This document shows, piece by piece, positions 5,290-46,317 of a stretch of DNA of 64,000 nt. How positions within the stretch are numbered: the stretch's first letter is position 1; every line of letters begins with the position of its first letter. This stretch comes from Paenibacillus puerhi (GTDB lineage: Bacteria; Bacillota; Bacilli; Paenibacillales; NBRC-103111). The notes below the pieces were generated by a model. That model did not search any database and was not told where the DNA came from. It saw nothing but the letters and a program-made list of their open reading frames with translations. Location: contig NZ_WUWM01000001.1 in assembly GCF_009846885.1 (NCBI RefSeq), positions 310,001-374,000 of the forward strand, written 5' to 3'. Both the position numbers and the translations under genes were made by a program.

Positions 5290-5811
5290 TTGAAGCGAAC
5301 GCGAGATGTAATCGGACTACCTGTGATAGGCGTACAGACCGGCAAGCAAGTAGGCGTTATCAAAGATGTACTGCTCGACGACGAGTGGCAGGTTCAAGCT
5401 TTCGTACTCAGTGATGGATACTGGTTCCAGGATGCGACAGGCGTCGGATGGGACAGTGTAGTAGCAGTCGGCGACGATGCCGTGACGATCAAGCAGGAGG
5501 AGCTTATCGGGCCTCTAGACGCTGCTGGGTCATGGAGATTGCTGCTCGGCGGCAGCCGCCGCATCAAAGGATTGCCTTTACTAACCGTCAACGGGCACCA
5601 ACTCGGGGTGGTCGATGATGTTTATTTGGATGGGGAATCGGGTAGGAAAGTAATAGGTTATGAAGTAACCGAGGGTTTCATTTCAGATCTCAAAGAAGGG
5701 CGCAAGTGGTTGCCCATGCCGGAGTCCGTCAAAGTCGGCGAGGATGCCTTGATTGTTCCCGTTCACGCAAGCGAGGCGTTGGAGGAAATCTTCGTACCAA
5801 AAGAAGAATAG
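5290..5811 (+). CDS. PRC-barrel domain protein (YrrD-like)
   Basis: About 173 residues with two PRC-barrel halves, each opening with a 'GLPVI/GLPLL ... G.QVG/G.QLGVV.DV' pattern (residues about 6-60 and 93-150). PRC barrels mediate protein or RNA contacts; the exact role of YrrD-type proteins is not known to me. I prefer the TTG at 5290 because GGAGAG then lies about 8 bases upstream; in-frame ATGs at 5275 and 5284 are alternatives that add two to five residues. It occupies the place of yrrD between the cymR/desulfurase genes and yrrI in Bacillus. Confidence 0.75.
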   Translation: MKRTRDVIGLPVIGVQTGKQVGVIKDVLLDDEWQVQAFVLSDGYWFQDATGVGWDSVVAVGDDAVTIKQEELIGPLDAAGSWRLLLGGSRRIKGLPLLTVNGHQLGVVDDVYLDGESGRKVIGYEVTEGFISDLKEGRKWLPMPESVKVGEDALIVPVHASEALEEIFVPKEE

Positions 5812-5821
5812 GGTGATACCG

Positions 5822-6019
5822 ATGTTACGTTGTCCAAATTGCAACTCGAAAGATATTGGCAAAATCGGCTCGCACCAGTTTTATTGCTGGGGCTGCTTTA
5901 TCGAACTGACGGTGAACGGTGAAAAAATGTCCGTATTTCAAGTAGAGGAAGATGGTACGCTTAGCTCGCTTGATGATCTTTTCTTCGAAGAGGAAATGCC
6001 GGAAGTACACGCTAACTAA
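5822..6019 (+). CDS. Small zinc-ribbon protein (65 aa)
   Basis: ATG at 5822 with GGTGAT upstream, 10 bases after the YrrD-like gene, so likely cotranscribed. The N-terminus is a zinc ribbon built from CPNC (residues 4-7) and CWGC (residues 23-26), spaced as a rubredoxin-like knuckle pair. The C-terminal third is acidic. Position matches the small yrzR gene of Bacillus between yrrD and yrrI, but I cannot confirm orthology. Function unknown; it may bind nucleic acid or protein through the zinc ribbon. Confidence 0.75.
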   Translation: MLRCPNCNSKDIGKIGSHQFYCWGCFIELTVNGEKMSVFQVEEDGTLSSLDDLFFEEEMPEVHAN

Positions 6020-6045
6020 CATGCGAACGGACAGAATAAATATGA

Positions 6046-6091
6046 AACGCCGCCTCGTTCAGCGCCCGCCGCTGCCAAGGCGGCGTTTTTT
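6046..6091 (+). terminator. Rho-independent terminator
   Basis: AACGCCGCC (6046-6054) pairs with GGCGGCGTT (6079-6087) across a 24-base loop, and a T-run completes at 6091. It closes the desulfurase-yrrD-zinc ribbon group. Confidence 0.85.
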
Positions 6092-38708: not shown

Positions 38709-38767
38709 AAGTCTTCAGGCTAGAGGGCTAGATCATGCGTTGCACATGTAGGGATGTCAAACTAAAT

Positions 38768-38865
38768 ATGACCATGGGAGTCCGGGGGGAACCGGGCTGA
38801 GAGTACGGCTTAACCGTCGTTAACCATTTGAACCTGTTGGGTCATGCCAGCGTAGGGAGAGGTGC
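38768..38865 (+). promoter_or_regulatory. TPP riboswitch (THI element) aptamer
   Basis: The conserved blocks of the thiamine pyrophosphate aptamer are present in order: GGGAGTCC, GGCTGAGAG (38795-38803), GAACCTG (38830-38836), GTCATGCCAGCGTAGGGAG (38841-38859). A closing P1 stem can form between the ACC at 38771 and GGT at 38861. A terminator follows at once, so binding of TPP should stop transcription of the operon below. Confidence 0.95.
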
Positions 38866-38869
38866 ATTC

Positions 38870-38904
38870 AAACACACTTTGCTTAGGGCGGGGTGTGTTT
38901 TTTT
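38870..38904 (+). terminator. Riboswitch expression-platform terminator
   Basis: AAACACAC (38870-38877) and GTGTGTTT (38893-38900) form the stem; seven T's run to 38904. Lies between aptamer and first gene. Confidence 0.88.
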
Positions 38905-38931
38905 GCAGGTTGGGACAAGGAGAGAAGCAAG

Positions 38932-39684
38932 GTGTCCTATTTGGGCTTTGAGAGGATCACACATCGGTATATTCAAGACGGACAGCCCGTGCTGCAGGAT
39001 CTGAGCCTGCAGGTGGCGGAAGGCGAATTCGTGTCCTTGCTCGGACGGAGCGGCTGCGGCAAAACGACGTTATTGAAAATGGCCGCGGGACTGATAACCC
39101 CCACCGAAGGGCGGGTAAGTATCGCGGGCCAGCCGGTGACGAAGCCGCACGAGCAGATCGGCATGGTCTTTCAATCCCCGACCCTGCTGGAGTGGCTGAC
39201 GGTGCGGGATAATGTGCTGCTGCCCGTCGCGCTGCAACGCAAGCCGACGGGGGCCGACCGCGAAGCGGCGGATGCGCGGCTTGCGCGCATGGGCCTGGCC
39301 GGCCACGAGGACAAATTCCCCGGCCAGCTGTCTGGCGGCCAGCAGAGCCGCGTTGCGCTAGCCCGCGCGCTGATGCGCGAGCCATCGCTTCTGCTGCTGG
39401 ACGAGCCGTTCGCCGCGCTCGATGCGCTGACGCGGGAGGAGCTGCAGGAGGATCTGCTGCGGCTGTGCGCGGCCCAGACGATGACGGTGCTGTTCATTAC
39501 GCATGATATTGCCGAGGCAGTCTATGTGTCGGATCGTGTCGTAATGCTGCAGGATGGCCGGATCGCGGCGGATACGGCGGTTCCTCTGCCGGAACAGCGC
39601 GAGTACAAGCTCCGCTATGAGGAGCCTTTTAATAAGCTATGTCTGTCGCTGCGGCAAACGATGGAAGGCGGTGGGCGCGTATGA
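38932..39684 (+). CDS. ABC transporter ATPase (ThiZ-like, thiamine precursor uptake)
   Basis: 250 residues of the taurine/nitrate/HMP-precursor (SsuB/TauB/ThiZ) subfamily. Walker A GRSGCGKTT (38-46), Q-loop MVFQSP, signature LSGGQQ, Walker B LLLLDEPF, H-loop FITHDIAEA. GTG 38932 with AAGGAGAG eight bases upstream; this excludes the longer reading from 38893 that runs through the terminator. First gene of the TPP-controlled operon, so the transported compound is probably a thiamine precursor or breakdown product. Confidence 0.88.
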   Translation: MSYLGFERITHRYIQDGQPVLQDLSLQVAEGEFVSLLGRSGCGKTTLLKMAAGLITPTEGRVSIAGQPVTKPHEQIGMVFQSPTLLEWLTVRDNVLLPVALQRKPTGADREAADARLARMGLAGHEDKFPGQLSGGQQSRVALARALMREPSLLLLDEPFAALDALTREELQEDLLRLCAAQTMTVLFITHDIAEAVYVSDRVVMLQDGRIAADTAVPLPEQREYKLRYEEPFNKLCLSLRQTMEGGGRV

Positions 39685-40490
39685 GGCGCGGCAAAGCGAA
39701 CGGAGGCCAGCCGCAAAGAGTAGTACGACAAAGCCGGAGCGGTTGGCTGAACGCCGGACTGCTCGCGGCGCTGCTGCTGCTCTGGGAGCTGGGCGTGCAG
39801 TCCAGCGGGGTGTCCGCCCTTGTGCTGCCGGCGCCGACGGTAGTCGCCGCCGCGCTGTGGAAGGGATTGTCCAGCGGCTACTTTATTCCGCATATTGGGC
39901 AGACGCTGCTGGAGATTATACTCGGGCTGCTGCTGGGAGGAGCGCTCGGACTGCTGATCGGGATCGGCATGGGGGAATGGCGCTGGCTGAGAAGGCTGCT
40001 CTCCCCGTATGTGATCGCCAGCCAGGCGGTGCCCAAGCTGGCCCTGGCGCCGCTGTTCATGATCTGGTTCGGCTTCGGTACGACGCCCAAGGTCGTCATC
40101 ACGGCGCTGATCGCTTTCTTTCCGCTGCTTGAAAGCACGGTAACGGCTATCCAGTATGTCGATCCGCTTAAGCAAGAGCTGTTCCGCGTGTTGGGGGCTT
40201 CCCGCTGGCAGACGCTGCTTCGCCTGAAGCTGCCCGCCGGATTGCCGGGGATGCTTGCCGGCGTTCGGGTGGCGGTCGTGCTGGCAGTCGTAGGAGCGGT
40301 TGTGGGGGAATTTATCGGAGGAAGCAAGGGACTGGGCGCCCTGCTGATCGCTTCGCAGGGCATGATGGATACTCCGCTGATGTTCGCGGTGGTGCTGCTG
40401 CTGACCGTGCTCGGCATGGCGCTGTATCAAGTGGTGTTAGTGATCGAGAGGATCAAGCTTAGACCCTATAAAAAGGAGAGCGACCAATGA
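39681..40490 (+). CDS. ABC transporter permease (ThiX-like)
   Basis: 269 residues, about six membrane helices, with the inner-loop EAA-type motif FRVLGASRWQTLLRLKLPAGLP that docks on the ATPase. Belongs to the SsuC/TauC/ThiX group. ATG 39681 overlaps the stop of the ATPase gene by four bases. Its own stop overlaps the binding-protein start by four bases, so all three parts are translationally coupled. Confidence 0.88.
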   Translation: MRRGKANGGQPQRVVRQSRSGWLNAGLLAALLLLWELGVQSSGVSALVLPAPTVVAAALWKGLSSGYFIPHIGQTLLEIILGLLLGGALGLLIGIGMGEWRWLRRLLSPYVIASQAVPKLALAPLFMIWFGFGTTPKVVITALIAFFPLLESTVTAIQYVDPLKQELFRVLGASRWQTLLRLKLPAGLPGMLAGVRVAVVLAVVGAVVGEFIGGSKGLGALLIASQGMMDTPLMFAVVLLLTVLGMALYQVVLVIERIKLRPYKKESDQ

Positions 40491-41539
40491 AGAAGACAAC
40501 ATGGACGATGCCTGTCATTTTGCTGCTGGCCGGGGGACTGCTGCTATCGGCCTGCGGATCCGGCCCGGCTGTATCCGATCCGGTGAAGAGCGGGACGGGA
40601 GGCGCCGCCGCGCCGGCTGCGCAGGCTCAGAAGCTGGTCATGGCTAGCTGGAGCAAACCGATTGCCGAGCAGACGAATCTGTTCCAGGCCCAGTCGCAGG
40701 GCTGGTTCAAGGAGAAAGGCATCGACTTTGCCTTTGTGCCGGGAGCCGGGGGTGGGGATGCGATCAAGAATATTTTGACCAAGCAGGCGGATATCGCCTT
40801 TACAGACCCGGGGTCCTTGTATTTCGCGCTGGAGAGGGGCGAGAAGCTGCGCGTCATCTACAACATCTATCCGCAGAATGTGTTCAACGTCGTGTCGCTG
40901 AAGGAGAAGGGCATTCGCGAGGCCAAGGATTTGAAAGGGAAGAAGATCGGCGTCTACAGCCTGGCCAGCGGAACGCGGCATAACCTGCTCGTGCTGCTGC
41001 ATCAAGCGGGACTGACGGAGAAGGACGTAACGATCATCGAGACCGGCGTCTCGAACTTCGCTCCGTTAATTCAGGGACAGGTCGATGCCACGGCCGCCAC
41101 GGACACCGGATTGGCCGATGCGACGCTGAAGGGGCTTGGCGAGGTGAACGAGCTGCGCGTGGCGGATGCGCTGAATGTGCCTAGTGACCTGTTCGTCGTT
41201 ACGGAAGAGACGCTGGCCCAGAAGAAGGAGCTGTTGAAAAGCTTCCTGGAGGTATACAAGCGCAGCGCCGAATGGATGATCGAAAACCCGGAGGCGGCAG
41301 CGGAGGTAGCTGTGGCCGAGGCAATCGACGGGCAGGATAAGAGCCGCAATAAGCGGATTATCGGGCTGCGGAATGCATCGGCGCTGACGCAGGACGGGCA
41401 GCCGCTCGGCACGTTGGATGAAGCGGTGCTTCAGCAGGGGGCCGACTTGTACAAGAAGCTTGGGCTGATTCAGAAGGAGCTGAGCCTGAAGGACATGGTT
41501 ACGAATGAGCTGCTTCCAGCCGAGCCTGCGAAGAAGTAA
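40487..41539 (+). CDS. ABC transporter substrate-binding lipoprotein (ThiY/NMT1-like)
   Basis: 350 residues. Signal peptide with lipobox LLSAC, lipidated Cys23. The mature part is of the NMT1/ThiY/SsuA fold, with WSKPIAEQTNLFQAQSQGWFKEKGI near the start and GGGDAIKNILTKQADIAFTDP, the typical ligand-loop region. Known ThiY binds formyl-aminopyrimidine; with no tenA or ylmB gene in this operon, the ligand here may be different. Attached to the outer face of the membrane. Confidence 0.85.
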   Translation: MKKTTWTMPVILLLAGGLLLSACGSGPAVSDPVKSGTGGAAAPAAQAQKLVMASWSKPIAEQTNLFQAQSQGWFKEKGIDFAFVPGAGGGDAIKNILTKQADIAFTDPGSLYFALERGEKLRVIYNIYPQNVFNVVSLKEKGIREAKDLKGKKIGVYSLASGTRHNLLVLLHQAGLTEKDVTIIETGVSNFAPLIQGQVDATAATDTGLADATLKGLGEVNELRVADALNVPSDLFVVTEETLAQKKELLKSFLEVYKRSAEWMIENPEAAAEVAVAEAIDGQDKSRNKRIIGLRNASALTQDGQPLGTLDEAVLQQGADLYKKLGLIQKELSLKDMVTNELLPAEPAKK

Positions 41540-41589
41540 CGTTGAAAACACGGTATAGCTGCTGAGAGGAAAGGAAGTGAAGGCAAGCG

Positions 41590-42735
41590 ATGAGACCGGA
41601 GTCGAGAGAAATCGTAGATCGGATACTTGTATATATAGGACAGCAAGCGGCCGAAGGCTCGCCGGACTGGTCGGCGGAAGGCAGTGCCGAAACGGAGGCC
41701 GAATTCAATAGATTGGCGCTGGAGGTGTTCGCCTACCAGGTGAAGCATATTCCCGCTTATCGCAAATATTGCCAGGCGAGGCGCAAATCGCCACTGACCG
41801 TACGCAGCTGGCAGGAGATTCCTCCGCTGCCGATTCAGGCCTTCAAGGAGCTGACTTTGTCCTGCGAGCCGGCGGAAGAGGCACAGGCCGTCTTCATGAC
41901 GAGCGGCACGACCCGGGCGGACAGCCGCGGCAAGCATTACCACCCGACTCTGGAGGTATGGGACGCTTCGATGGCCCCGCCGTTCAAGCGGTATGTGCTG
42001 CCCGATCGGGAACGGATGACCATCTTCGTGCTGTCCCCGGCGGAGGATGTGAACCGCAACAGCTCTTTGTCCCGGTATTTGTCCCGAGCAGTCGAGCTGT
42101 TCGGTGAACCGGACAGCCGTCTGTTTTACTCGCCGGAGCACGGTATCGACCTGTCTGAGGTTTGGACTGCGCTGCAGGAGCGAGAGGCGTCAGGCGGCCC
42201 CGTGCTGCTGATGGGAGCGACGTTCGCCTACGTGCATCTGCTCGATGCTTGTGCAGAGCGGGGGATCGACATCCGGCTGCCGGAAGGAAGCCGGCTTTTC
42301 GATACCGGAGGGCTGAAGGGACAAGCGAGGGAAATATCTCAAGAAGAGCTGTACAGTCAGATTAAGCGGATTCTTGGCCTAGAGCGGGATGACTGCGTGA
42401 ACATGTACGGGATGACGGAGCTGAGCTCCCAGCTCTACGACCGTCATATCCGCAGCCGCTTTCTTACGGGGGAGACAATATACGAGAAGACAAGCGGCCC
42501 TTGGATTCGCACGCTCGTGCTTGATCCGGACACGCTGGAGCCCGTCGCTGACGGGAAAAGGGGCGTGCTTGCCCATTACGATCTGGCCAGCTGGAACTCG
42601 GCGTTCGCTACGCTTACGGAGGATCTCGGCTACCGGACGGAGCATGGGCTTGTGCTGCTTGGCCGGGTCCAGGGCTCGGAGGCAAGAGGCAGCTCGATCG
42701 CCGTAGACCAATTGATGAACGCCAGTCGAAAGTAG
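41590..42735 (+). CDS. LuxE-like acyl-protein synthetase (carboxylate-activating)
   Basis: 381 residues of the LuxE/PF04443-type ANL adenylating family. Phosphate loop TSGTTR at 104-109; adenylate-binding YGMTEL at 273-278; late loop LGYRTEHGLVLLGR. Luminous-bacterial LuxE passes the acyl group to a cysteine near its C-terminus. Here there is no cysteine after Cys269, and the C-terminal block reads EARGSSIAVD, so acyl transfer may go straight to the next protein. ATG 41590 after GGAAGTGAAGG. It abuts the LuxC-like gene exactly, so the two should act in sequence: acid to acyl-AMP to aldehyde. Substrate is not known; TPP control points to a thiamine fragment. Confidence 0.82.
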   Translation: MRPESREIVDRILVYIGQQAAEGSPDWSAEGSAETEAEFNRLALEVFAYQVKHIPAYRKYCQARRKSPLTVRSWQEIPPLPIQAFKELTLSCEPAEEAQAVFMTSGTTRADSRGKHYHPTLEVWDASMAPPFKRYVLPDRERMTIFVLSPAEDVNRNSSLSRYLSRAVELFGEPDSRLFYSPEHGIDLSEVWTALQEREASGGPVLLMGATFAYVHLLDACAERGIDIRLPEGSRLFDTGGLKGQAREISQEELYSQIKRILGLERDDCVNMYGMTELSSQLYDRHIRSRFLTGETIYEKTSGPWIRTLVLDPDTLEPVADGKRGVLAHYDLASWNSAFATLTEDLGYRTEHGLVLLGRVQGSEARGSSIAVDQLMNASRK

Positions 42736-44289
42736 GTGACCCTCATAGCTGCATATCAGGACGATCATCTTCCGCTTCGTGAAGAGAAGCCGCCGCTGCG
42801 GACGGGCAGCGACACGGAAAACGGAGTCGAAGCGCCGGTTCTTACGCTCGCCGCCTGCCGCTTGCCGCGAGGCATAGAGCCTGAGCGGTGGACCGAACGG
42901 AGATTCGAGGGACCGGCAGGGACGCTGGCGCTGAAGCTGCCCGTCCTCGACCCGGAGCTGCTGGAGAGGATCGCGCGGGAGGTAACCGCCTGCCGGGCGG
43001 CCTATCTGGAGACTCTGCGCACGGAGCGTATTGTCGAGCTCCTTGACCGCGCCGTCGCCCGCTGGCTGGACCCGGACTATGAGCTTAGGAAGCTCGCAGA
43101 GACGTGGCTGCCGGTCATTACCGGCTATGACGCCGGGATGATCCGGCTGGAGCTGAAGCGGCTCTTCCGCACGTTCCGCAAGAAGGAGCTGCTGCGCTTT
43201 CTGGATGAAGAATTTGACGCGGCTGCCGTACTGGACGAGTTTCGTCCCCGCAAGCATGGCGGCATGAGCCGCGCCTACGGACCCGAGCTTATCTTCCACG
43301 TGTTTTCCGGCAACGTGCCGGGGCTTCCGGTTTGGAGTCTGATCATGGGTCTGCTGGTCAAGGCTGCGGGGATTGGCAAGACCTCCTCCTCCGAGCCGTT
43401 GATGGCGGTGTTGTTCGCCAGAACGCTGGCCGAGATCGATGAGGAGCTTGCCGATTGCCTGGCTATCCTGCCATGGAAGGGCGGCAGCGAGGAGCTGGAG
43501 CGCCCGCTGCTGGAGGCTGCGGACGCGGTGATCGTATACGGCTCGCAGCAGACCGTAGAGCATCTTCGCAGTCGTACGCCCGCGACCCGCAGGTTTCTCA
43601 GCTACGGGCATAAGATCAGCCTCGCCATGATCGGGCGCGAGGCGCTGACCGCGGACCGGTACAGGGAGACGGCGAGAAGGCTGGCGGAGGACGCATCGGT
43701 GTACGATCAGCAGGGGTGTCTGGCTCCACATGCCGCCTTCGTGGAGGAAGGCGGCGCGGTATCCGCGCGGCAGTTCGCGCAGCTGGTCGCTTCCGAGATG
43801 GAGCGCTATCAGGAGAAGAAGCCGCGCGCCGAGCTCTCGGACGAAGAGGCGATGGCCATCCGTGCGGTCCGCCAGCGGATGGAGCTGCGCGGGCTGCAGG
43901 GCGAGCCGGTCCAGGTGTACGCGAGCGCTCAGGGAACGGCGTGGACGGTGATCTATCACGACGTGACAGGCTTTGAAGCATCGCCGCTGAACCGCACGCT
44001 GCATGTCTATGCCTGCAGCGGCTTGGAGCAGGCGGCAGCGCAGCTTCGGCCTTTCCGCGATTATGTGCAGACGGCTGGACTTGCAGTCGGACCGGACCGT
44101 CTGGAGCGGGTGGCGGCGCGTCTGGGGAGCTGCGGAGTGACGCGGATATGCGCCGTCGGCCAGATGGCGAGAACGCCGGCGGGCTGGCATCATGACGGGC
44201 GGCTGAATCTCCTCGATCTGGTGCGCTGGGTGGATCTCGAGCGGAGCGCGGAGCTGGAAGCCGATCGTTATGATCCGGATGCGGAGTAA
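42736..44289 (+). CDS. LuxC-like acyl-thioester/acyl reductase
   Basis: 517 residues, aldehyde-dehydrogenase-like fold of the LuxC family. Catalytic Cys328 lies in YDQQGCLAPH, the LuxC active-site position. Segments IFHVFSGNVPGLPVWSLIMG and VIVYGSQQTVEHL form the NADPH-binding region. It reduces activated acyl groups to aldehydes, normally with LuxE. The GTG at 42736 directly follows the LuxE stop; the AGTAGGTGA there could instead serve an ATA at 42745. The first ~55 residues are rich in charged residues and not well conserved. Confidence 0.82.
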   Translation: MTLIAAYQDDHLPLREEKPPLRTGSDTENGVEAPVLTLAACRLPRGIEPERWTERRFEGPAGTLALKLPVLDPELLERIAREVTACRAAYLETLRTERIVELLDRAVARWLDPDYELRKLAETWLPVITGYDAGMIRLELKRLFRTFRKKELLRFLDEEFDAAAVLDEFRPRKHGGMSRAYGPELIFHVFSGNVPGLPVWSLIMGLLVKAAGIGKTSSSEPLMAVLFARTLAEIDEELADCLAILPWKGGSEELERPLLEAADAVIVYGSQQTVEHLRSRTPATRRFLSYGHKISLAMIGREALTADRYRETARRLAEDASVYDQQGCLAPHAAFVEEGGAVSARQFAQLVASEMERYQEKKPRAELSDEEAMAIRAVRQRMELRGLQGEPVQVYASAQGTAWTVIYHDVTGFEASPLNRTLHVYACSGLEQAAAQLRPFRDYVQTAGLAVGPDRLERVAARLGSCGVTRICAVGQMARTPAGWHHDGRLNLLDLVRWVDLERSAELEADRYDPDAE

Positions 44290-44366
44290 TCTGCCACGCG
44301 GGGGTCATAGATCGGCAAGGGCAAGCCCGATGGCGTCCCCTTAAGCAAAGGACTGGAGGAAGCATC

Positions 44367-45134
44367 ATGAATTTTACCGGGAAAACCGTACTGGTCACCG
44401 GCTCAAGCCGCGGCATCGGAGCCGCGATCGCCGAGGCATTCGGTGCGCAAGGAGCGCTGGTGATCGTCAATTATATCCGCAATGAAGCGGCTGCGGAAGC
44501 GGTAGTCGGCCGTATCCGCGCACAGGGCGGAGAGGCTGTCGCGATGAAGGCCGATGTGACCGACCCCGCGGCGGTACAAGCGATGATCGACGAGTCGGCA
44601 GAGGCTTTCGGATCGCTGGATGTTGTGGTCAACAACGCGCTCAGTCCGTACAGCTTCGATCCGAAGCGGCGCAAAACCGCCTGGGAGCTTCGCTGGGAGG
44701 ATTACCGGGAACAGCTGGAGGGCAGCTTGGGCGGAGCCTTCCACGTCGTGCAGGCCGCTATCCCGTTGATGAAGGAGCGAGGAAAGGGAAGGATCGTCAA
44801 TCTGGTGACCAACCTGATCGACTTTCCGGTGGTGCCGTACCATGATTATACGACGGCGAAGGCGGCGCTGCTCGGCTACAGCCGTAACCTGGCGGCAGAG
44901 CTGGGGGCGTTTGGCATCACGGTCAATTGCGTAGCTCCGGGCTTGACCTCTCCGACGGATTCCAGCCGGGATACGAAGGAGGATACGAAGAATGCCATCA
45001 TCGGATTGACGCCGCTCGGCAGACTGGCATCTCCGGCGGATATCGCGGGAGCGGTGCTTTTCTTCGCTTCCGACTGGGCTTCATTTGTAACGGGGCAGTG
45101 TCTCCATGTAGACGGCGGGCTAGTGATGCGTTAG
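44367..45134 (+). CDS. Short-chain dehydrogenase/reductase (FabG-like)
   Basis: 255 residues, classical SDR fold. NAD(P) motif TGSSRGIG (11-18), NNA motif at about 89-91, and the active-site pair Tyr161/Lys165 in DYTTAK. The catalytic serine, normally 13 residues before the tyrosine, is Thr148 (LVTNLIDF). The adjacent NYIRNEAAAEAV arginine region suggests NADP preference. In the operon it follows the LuxE-LuxC pair, and so could reduce their aldehyde product to an alcohol. ATG 44367 with GGAGGAA upstream. Confidence 0.85.
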   Translation: MNFTGKTVLVTGSSRGIGAAIAEAFGAQGALVIVNYIRNEAAAEAVVGRIRAQGGEAVAMKADVTDPAAVQAMIDESAEAFGSLDVVVNNALSPYSFDPKRRKTAWELRWEDYREQLEGSLGGAFHVVQAAIPLMKERGKGRIVNLVTNLIDFPVVPYHDYTTAKAALLGYSRNLAAELGAFGITVNCVAPGLTSPTDSSRDTKEDTKNAIIGLTPLGRLASPADIAGAVLFFASDWASFVTGQCLHVDGGLVMR

Positions 45135-45232
45135 AGGCTACCTCCAGAGGCGAACTGCCTGAAGTAAGGTGAAATAAAAGGTACGGCATGGGGCAAAGCC
45201 TCATTATGAAACGATTAGGGAGGGCTATGCAA

Positions 45233-46045
45233 ATGAACATCGAAACAAGTATCGAGCTGTTGAACCGGGTACGCGAACAGAAGCCGCTCGTCCACAACAT
45301 TACGAATGTCGTTGTCACGAATTTCACGGCCAACGGGCTGCTGGCCTTAGGGGCTTCCCCGGTCATGGCGTATGCGCATGAAGAAGTAGCCGACATGGCG
45401 AAAATAGCGGGCGCGCTGGTCGTCAATATGGGAACGCTCGACGAGCAGCTGATCGAATCCATTCTGATCGCCGGGCGTTCGGCCAACGAGCATGGCGTTC
45501 CGGTCATTTTCGACCCGGTCGGCGCGGGAGCTACTCCTTACCGGACGGCCGCGGCCAAACGCATACTCGAAGGCATTCGCGTCTCCGTGCTGCGCGGCAA
45601 TGCGGCGGAGGTCGCCAACGTGATTGGGGGGACCAGTGAGATCAAGGGCGTGGATGCCGGGGAGTCAGCCGGGGCCGATGGATCCTTACTGGCTCGTCAG
45701 GCGGCAAGCCTGCTGAACGCGGTCGTCGTCGTTACGGGAGCGGATGATTATGTAAGCGACGGGAAGATCACTCACCGGATCAGCAACGGCACGCCGCTGC
45801 TGACGGCTGTTACCGGTACGGGCTGCCTGCTGACGAGTGTGATCGGGGCCTTCGCCGCGGTGGAAAAGGACCTTATGACGGCAGCTGCGACGGCACTCGC
45901 CTTCTACGGCGTCGCGGCTGAGCTTGCCGTAGAAATTTCAGGGCCCAACCATCCGGGTACGTTCCAAGTCGAGTTCCTTAACCGGCTGCATACGACGACG
46001 GGAGAGGACCTGGGCTCGCGAGCGGTAATTTGGCAGATTGGCTGA
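45233..46045 (+). CDS. thiM: Hydroxyethylthiazole kinase ThiM
   Basis: 270 residues. Phosphorylates 5-(2-hydroxyethyl)-4-methylthiazole to make the thiazole half of thiamine. The substrate entrance motif [19 protein letters not shown] is at 17-35 and the active-site TGTGC with Cys198 matches the Bacillus enzyme in position. ATG 45233 is chosen since AGGGAGG is nine bases upstream; ATG 45227 is closer than optimal, and ATG 45188 precedes the site. Last gene of the TPP operon. Confidence 0.93.
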
Positions 46046-46122
46046 AGCGCAGCGAGTGAAGACGGGGGCATCGGCCTATTCTAGGCAGCGGTCGTCCTAT
46101 GTCCGACATCCGAATACTCATC

Positions 46123-46174
46123 AAGGCAGAGCAGGTCTCCTTCCAGGAAGGAAAGGCCGACTCTGCCTTTTTTT
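46123..46174 (+). terminator. Terminator of TPP operon
   Basis: AAGGCAGAG (46123-46131) and CTCTGCCTT (46161-46169) with a seven-T run. Confidence 0.85.
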
Positions 46175-46317
46175 GCATTCGTCATGCCAGCCTTTCCGGG
46201 CGAAAGGTGCATGGACGCCGGAGGCATGTTATGATCGGGGATATCATCGAGGACGGAATGAGCCGCGCTTCCTGTCGCTCCATGTCTTTAAGACGGCCAA
46301 GGGGAGTCCCGCGTCCT

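Follow-up and report, generated by a model that had tools for sequence, protein, structure and literature searches.

A widely conserved, thiamin pyrophosphate-controlled gene set whose composition suggests thiamin salvage by carboxylate reduction

Introduction

In described thiamin pyrophosphate (TPP) regulons, TPP riboswitches lie over thi genes and the transporters of thiamin precursors (PMC3766115, main text). Base-degraded thiamin is salvaged by ThiXYZ import of an altered thiamin pyrimidine, which YlmB and TenA convert to hydroxymethylpyrimidine (HMP), as outlined in passages of PMC5627462. Here we analyze a 64,000-nucleotide stretch of the Paenibacillus puerhi genome (assembly GCF_009846885.1, contig NZ_WUWM01000001.1, positions 310,001 to 374,000; the whole stretch is called the window, and coordinates follow its own numbering). 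Its forward strand holds a gene run (38764-46169) made up of a TPP aptamer, a terminator, an ATP-binding cassette (ABC) importer, luxE-like and luxC-like genes, a short-chain dehydrogenase/reductase (SDR) gene, thiM and a second terminator. The luxE-luxC-SDR set (the trio) is real, widely conserved and under TPP control, and it is composed as a cassette for thiamin salvage by carboxylate reduction would be.

The operon resembles the salvage of base-degraded thiamin in its TPP-controlled ThiXYZ-type import and in a proposed conversion to HMP for ThiD (PMC5627462, passages as above). Unlike the YlmB/TenA route, it has LuxE, LuxC and SDR parts for ATP-driven carboxylate reduction. As in the described regulons, its TPP riboswitch governs thi genes and precursor transporters (PMC3766115, main text); the terms "LuxE", "acyl-CoA" and "short-chain" do not occur in that main text.

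The LuxE-LuxC fatty acid reductase of luminous bacteria (structure 7xc6) is built from the same two families and shares with the cassette the Ser motif, the LuxC active-site Cys and, in the cassette's relatives, the Cys aligned with position 364. The cassette differs from it in scoring far below the curated fatty-acid cut-offs, in the added SDR, in its TPP control and in having no luciferase gene among the seven operon genes (Pfam). The nearest folds of the cassette ligase are those of PaaK-family aryl-acid ligases. PaaK makes coenzyme A (CoA) thioesters, whereas the C-terminal Cys of the cassette relatives and the LuxC partner point to reduction. Among the titles and abstract beginnings listed in searches of the openly licensed literature, no TPP-controlled luxE-luxC-SDR set is described. 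Rodionov et al. reportedly named a thiamin-regulated SDR oarX in 2002; oarX together with thiamin was not found in the openly licensed literature searched.

Results

A TPP riboswitch accompanies the trio in two phyla

Trio loci were picked by LuxE similarity (∼40% identity or more), and the remaining fetched loci served as controls (16 at 33-37% LuxE identity and two at ∼22%). Sources with a close LuxE homologue came from Bacillota, Alpha- and Gammaproteobacteria, some of them being plasmids, and in 40 of the 41 our own model, R1, detected a TPP aptamer. The sole miss (locus L101) is an 8356-base contig on which the first gene of the run, a permease gene, starts ∼320 bases from the contig end. 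In contrast, R1 matched none of the 18 loci of distant LuxE homologues; 8 of them were also scanned with Rfam and likewise gave no TPP match.

The 16 aptamers underlying R1, the window's among them, had all first scored over gathering with Rfam's model. Twelve of the 41 sources contain 14 of these aptamers, and the matches in those sources are thus obtained by construction. Among the 29 sources that gave no aptamer to R1, 28 had a match. Rfam's own model at gathering recovered 16 of the 20 trio sources scanned, and the four misses (L035, L038, L039 and L069) were all R1-positive; at L067 the R1 match was partial and the Rfam match full. The aptamer of L073 is that of L099, and the L065 aptamer is, judged by score and position, the one also present in L064. 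Two strains of a single species supplied L003 and L004, L069 is nearly identical to L140, and L034 was left unused as the same genome and place as L002. The 41 sources include L065 (proteins the same as in L064) and L070 (a broken copy), both outside the 39 loci that were aligned. As to the controls, L052, L054, L055 and L056 end at contig ends, four genomes supply two loci each, and the LuxE proteins of L056 and L057 are identical.

The LuxE searches yielded 4 loci in the genome collection, 9 genomes among 60 relatives at E 0.001 (7 strong, own genome counted), 16 among 398 genomes of the phylum at E 1e-20 (4 below 1e-80, own genome counted), 10 among 104 genomes of the family at 1e-60, and 18 among 348 genomes of Robertmurraya's order at 1e-70. 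Plasmids gave 27 records, with surroundings taken from 8 of them. The 39 trio-linked LuxE proteins make up one side of a tree branch with a support of 93/96, just below the program's mark of firm support.

The window aptamer scored just over the Rfam gathering value (54.4 vs. 54.3 bits, E 6.8e-08) and was the sole Rfam match at gathering inside the window. Its 3′-end is overlapped by the terminator hairpin, as expected of an expression platform. The aptamer alone folds no better than shuffled sequences (z +0.37), so it is identified by the covariance model and by the TPP elements at the other trio loci.

The original prediction, made from the letters of the window, had described this very order of aptamer, terminator, importer, luxE-like, luxC-like, SDR and thiM genes and closing terminator, and was borne out in every part. 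It had also taken the trio for a thiamin-linked carboxylate-to-alcohol set, a putative role that the presence of TPP elements at close but not at distant loci supports. It had further staked that role on the trio lying with both TPP elements and thiM in relatives: the former holds, but the latter does not, with same-strand thiM near the trio at 11 of 39 loci. The trio is tied to thiamin genes by regulation at 40 of 41 loci, and by neighboring thi genes at some.

Catalytic features of the trio

LuxE, LuxC and SDR are all present in 39 of 39 aligned loci, although their arrangement varies. On plasmids, the LuxE relative and the LuxC relative occur in the same 27 records, and the next LuxC matches drop to 28-30% identity. 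LuxE Ser105 is conserved, and residue 368 shares its alignment column with the C-terminal acyl-carrier Cys (position 364) of the LuxE structure 7xc6. LuxC Cys328, conserved in at least 95% of the 39 loci, is aligned to a Cys of 7xc6_A, and SDR Tyr161 and Lys165 are conserved across the family alignment. Structure 7xc6 is absent among the 50 fold matches listed for the ligase; this is no evidence against kinship with LuxE, because sequence comparison does find 7xc6.

Curated fatty-acid cut-offs were missed by LuxE (NF052244, 63.2 of 550 bits) and by LuxC (NF052251, 105.5 of 750 bits). The SDR exceeded the equivalog cut-off of NCBIfam NF006393, "3-oxoacyl-ACP reductase" (ACP, acyl carrier protein), with 312 vs. 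292 bits, and automatic annotation would therefore label it a fatty-acid gene. Six distant LuxE relatives (L045, L047, L049, L050, L052 and L058) lie in long frames of 939-1048 amino acids without TPP elements; these frames are perhaps LuxE-LuxC fusions.

Proposed pathway and the identity of the acid

We would commit about half of our confidence to reading the operon as TPP-riboswitch thiamin-precursor salvage in which a pyrimidine 5-carboxylate is likely reduced to HMP for ThiD. From the gene content, TPP link, catalytic motifs, folds and partner genes observed we infer the reactions and the substrate as follows. At low TPP, as the anatomy suggests, transcription would read through the terminator. 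The importer (NMT1-type ABC here, NCS2 elsewhere) would take up a small aromatic heterocyclic carboxylate, presumably formed when thiamin or its pyrimidine is oxidized. The LuxE/PaaK-like ligase would form an acyl-adenylate with ATP and then load the acyl group onto its own C-terminal Cys. The LuxC-like enzyme would accept this group as a thioester and reduce it with NADPH to the aldehyde, which the SDR would convert to the alcohol. The product would most likely be HMP, derived from 4-amino-2-methylpyrimidine-5-carboxylate and then phosphorylated by ThiD, while the thiM at the operon end would salvage the thiazole half separately.

The pyrimidine is favored over the thiazole because of the following observations. 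In genome G464, a TPP aptamer is followed by a single run with thiO-thiS-thiG-thiF-thiD-thiE, an NCS2 nucleobase-type permease and, at its end, the trio; neither ThiC nor ThiM was found over cut-off in that genome. ThiM over the family cut-off is also missing from trio genomes G002 and Bosea (G520); two of these three genomes are rated as 100% complete and the third is of unstated completeness. (A fourth trio genome without ThiM over cut-off, G454, is 70% complete.) At L101 the SDR gene runs into thiD, in the order SDR-thiD-thiE. The genome of the window has no ThiC but a full-length ThiG. Finally, the nearest folds of the binding protein are aminopyrimidine binders: the formylaminopyrimidine (FAMP) binder 3ix1 and the HMP synthase Thi5, with thiamin-bound 4nmy in second place. 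The original prediction had offered a thiazole or a pyrimidine acid, to be used by ThiM or ThiD; the pyrimidine agrees better with G464, L101 and the folds of the binding protein, but the thiazole, its first example, has lost ground through the ThiM-less genomes G464, G002 and Bosea.

In thiazole salvage, 4-methylthiazole-5-acetate would be reduced to hydroxyethylthiazole (HET) and phosphorylated by ThiM. This seems improbable to us, even though thiM stands directly 3′ of the SDR gene in the window and at L002, L035, L036 and L136, the Robertmurraya trio is surrounded by thiG, thiH and tenI, and ThiM occurs in 29 of 33 trio genomes. Genome G010, with ThiC and with ThiM inside the trio operon but no full-length ThiG, would also fit. 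ThiM was not found in G464, G002 and Bosea, however, and the known kinase could therefore not use HET there; G464 has thiazole genes of its own (thiO, thiS, thiG and thiF), full-length ThiG is present in 28 of 33 trio genomes, and the binding protein resembles pyrimidine binders. As a general answer the thiazole branch is thus weakened by the ThiM-less trio genomes, and we retain it as a rival. Carboxythiazole (cHET), the 2-carboxylate of which is lost in the pathway, was ruled out as the substrate on chemistry alone.

Repair of the whole vitamin would require the import of thiamin acetic acid, in which the hydroxyethyl group of thiamin is oxidized, and its reduction to the vitamin. Rats are known to form thiamine acetic acid from thiamine (title of Amos and Neal, 1970, in the reference list of PMC7575681), 4nmy binds whole thiamin, and such repair fits all genomes, needing neither ThiM nor ThiD. 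We nevertheless regard it as unlikely: the thi genes adjoining the trio are the precursor genes thiM, thiD, thiE and thiG (thiamin pyrophosphokinase was not searched for), and the NCS2 permeases belong to a nucleobase-type family. It is likewise doubtful that another carboxylate, such as a fatty or aromatic acid, is reduced under TPP control for a different reason. In luminous bacteria, fatty acids are the substrates of the LuxE and LuxC families, and PaaK-like folds accept many aryl acids, but the TPP link extends over 40 of 41 loci and two phyla, thi genes lie in the same run at some loci, the binding protein is of the thiamin type, and the scores are far below the curated fatty-acid LuxE and LuxC cut-offs.

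Several findings weigh against reduction of a pyrimidine acid to HMP. Of the 33 trio genomes, 24 encode ThiC, so the cassette is no general replacement of ThiC; genomes that lack the trio can lack ThiC as well, as do 4 of 17 from the same genus and 15 of 20 Bacillales (the first 20 listed among genomes without a LuxE match, of unstated completeness). The idea that the trio replaces ThiC was ruled out on both counts. Neither kinase is a constant partner, since same-strand thiM is near the trio at 11 and same-strand thiD at 9 of 39 loci; thiM occurs without thiD at four loci and thiD without thiM at two. In the window's close relatives (L002, L035 and L036), the trio is followed by thiM rather than thiD. 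The composition of G010 and the whole thiamin bound by 4nmy count on the same side, as does the window's own ligase, the sole exception among the best 120 of 1446 LuxE database relatives, 119 of which have the acyl-carrier Cys (one of these Cys calls was read by eye from the listed C-terminus).

A wider proposal is that reduction of a pyrimidine 5-carboxylate to HMP with ATP and NADPH, by a repurposed LuxE-LuxC pair and an SDR, is a further kind of thiamin salvage. Its occurrence in two phyla and on plasmids would then mean that soil, plant and fermentation communities exchange this acid as an unrecognized B1 vitamer; we hold the proposal with somewhat less than even confidence. If it is true, (i) oxidized thiamin fragments, usually deemed waste, are nutrients; (ii) some apparent thiamin auxotrophs have a hidden source; (iii) proteins named "CoF synthetase", "long-chain fatty acid--CoA ligase", "acyl-CoA reductase" and "3-oxoacyl-ACP reductase" gain a function; and (iv) an acid reductase of the bioluminescence type works in vitamin metabolism.

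A Ser replaces the acyl-carrier Cys in the window's LuxE

Codon 368 of the window's luxE (42691-42693) is AGC, for Ser, where L002 has TGC. The acyl-carrier Cys is present at 38 of 39 trio loci, and the window protein is the only exception; the window copy thus lacks the C-terminal Cys that marks the LuxE family. The cassette may be impaired in this strain, or the Cys may be dispensable. That Ser368 blocks acyl transfer, with the importer and ThiM alone still useful, is possible but on the unlikely side, and is compatible with any of the acids considered above. The restriction of Ser368 to the window, both among the trio loci and among the best database relatives, speaks for it. On the other hand, luxE is open, otherwise conserved and under purifying selection (ratio of nonsynonymous to synonymous substitution rates, dN/dS, 0.096 vs. 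L002), LuxC could accept the acyl-adenylate directly or the Ser could serve, and a sequencing error is possible.

Importers

An NMT1-type binding protein is encoded at 25 of the 39 loci (at L044 split over two frames), an NCS2 permease at 11, and neither at three (L042, L068 and L071). The window importer has the ThiXYZ-type composition of an NMT1/ThiY-type binding protein, a permease and an ATPase. Paenibacillus loci of the window's kind have this ABC importer, yet their LuxE branches among NCS2-linked LuxE proteins; it is therefore probable that the two importer types have been exchanged for one another and transport a common compound. A conserved pocket Arg of the binding protein, considered as a carboxylate signature, was not found: of the 24 alignment rows with a residue at position 164, 19 have Arg and 5 have Tyr.

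Anatomy of the operon

All seven reading frames of the operon (Table 1) are open, and the seven genes are under purifying selection, with dN/dS values of 0.07-0.17 vs. Paenibacillus sp. cl123 (L002), the closest relative. Neighboring genes overlap or are at most 50 bases apart as far as luxC; beyond it the gaps are 77 and then 53 bases. ThiM scored above the curated cut-off of TIGR00694 (301.5 vs. 256.4 bits).

Table 1. Elements of the TPP-riboswitch operon in the window (ORF, open reading frame).
Feature	Position	Strand	Evidence
TPP riboswitch aptamer, RF00059	38764..38877	+	Rfam covariance model 54.4 bits; own model R1 89.9 bits
Intrinsic terminator, riboswitch expression platform	~38870..38905	+	Fold 38864-38910, -21.1 kcal/mol, z -6.4; T-run in sequence
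ABC importer ATPase, ThiZ-like	38932..39684	+	PF00005 (ABC_tran), 127.6 bits; start inferred, listed ORF from 38893
ABC importer permease, ThiX-like	39681..40490	+	PF00528 (BPD_transp_1), 103.9 bits; start inferred, listed ORF from 39639
Substrate-binding lipoprotein, NMT1/ThiY type	40487..41539	+	Pfam NMT1, 167 bits
LuxE/PaaK-like acid-activating ligase (predicted)	41590..42735	+	PF04443, 89.3 bits (cut-off 24.9); Ser105 motif kept; Ser368 at acyl-carrier Cys position
LuxC-like acyl reductase (predicted)	42736..44289	+	PF05893, 374.1 bits (cut-off 21); conserved Cys328
SDR oxidoreductase, likely aldehyde reductase	44367..45134	+	PF13561 (adh_short_C2), 195.6 bits; Tyr161, Lys165
ThiM hydroxyethylthiazole kinase	45188..46045	+	PF02110 (HK), 292.5 bits; true start likely 45227
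Intrinsic terminator closing the gene run	46123..46169	+	Fold 46120-46180, -28.6 kcal/mol, z -4.7

Elsewhere in the window's genome, tenA lies with a TPP-linked transporter whose genes, of the ABC_cobalt, ABC and CbiQ families, are arranged like ykoEDC, and a TPP element of 51.8 bits, just under gathering, is found 5′ of thiG. This genome may therefore already have one route to salvaged pyrimidine.

Variant and mobile trio loci

In Robertmurraya korlensis (L003 and L004), a TPP-thiM-thiE-thiD run (thiE by similarity only) and a TPP-thiG-thiH-luxE-luxC-ABC-SDR-tenI run share one chromosomal stretch, with their two aptamers 2.5 kb apart. On a Niallia megaplasmid (L066), two tandem TPP aptamers (5784-6080) precede thiW-NCS2-luxE-luxC-SDR; ThiW carries thiazole. 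At L042 (7056-13379), in a genome that has neither ThiC nor a full-length ThiG, a ThiL-like/ThiN fusion comes after the trio, which lies opposite a divergent TPP-thiD-thiM run.

TPP-NCS2-luxE-luxC-SDR is also present on two small lactobacillus plasmids of 10 and 21 kb, from L. plantarum (L064; NZ_CP035118.1) and L. brevis (L065). Toxin-antitoxin and integrase genes on both plasmids and, in L065, a transposase gene make the cassette look mobile among food lactobacilli. On a Pseudomonas silvicola plasmid (L070) the trio is broken, with luxE and luxC in pieces, and the TPP aptamer still lies upstream.

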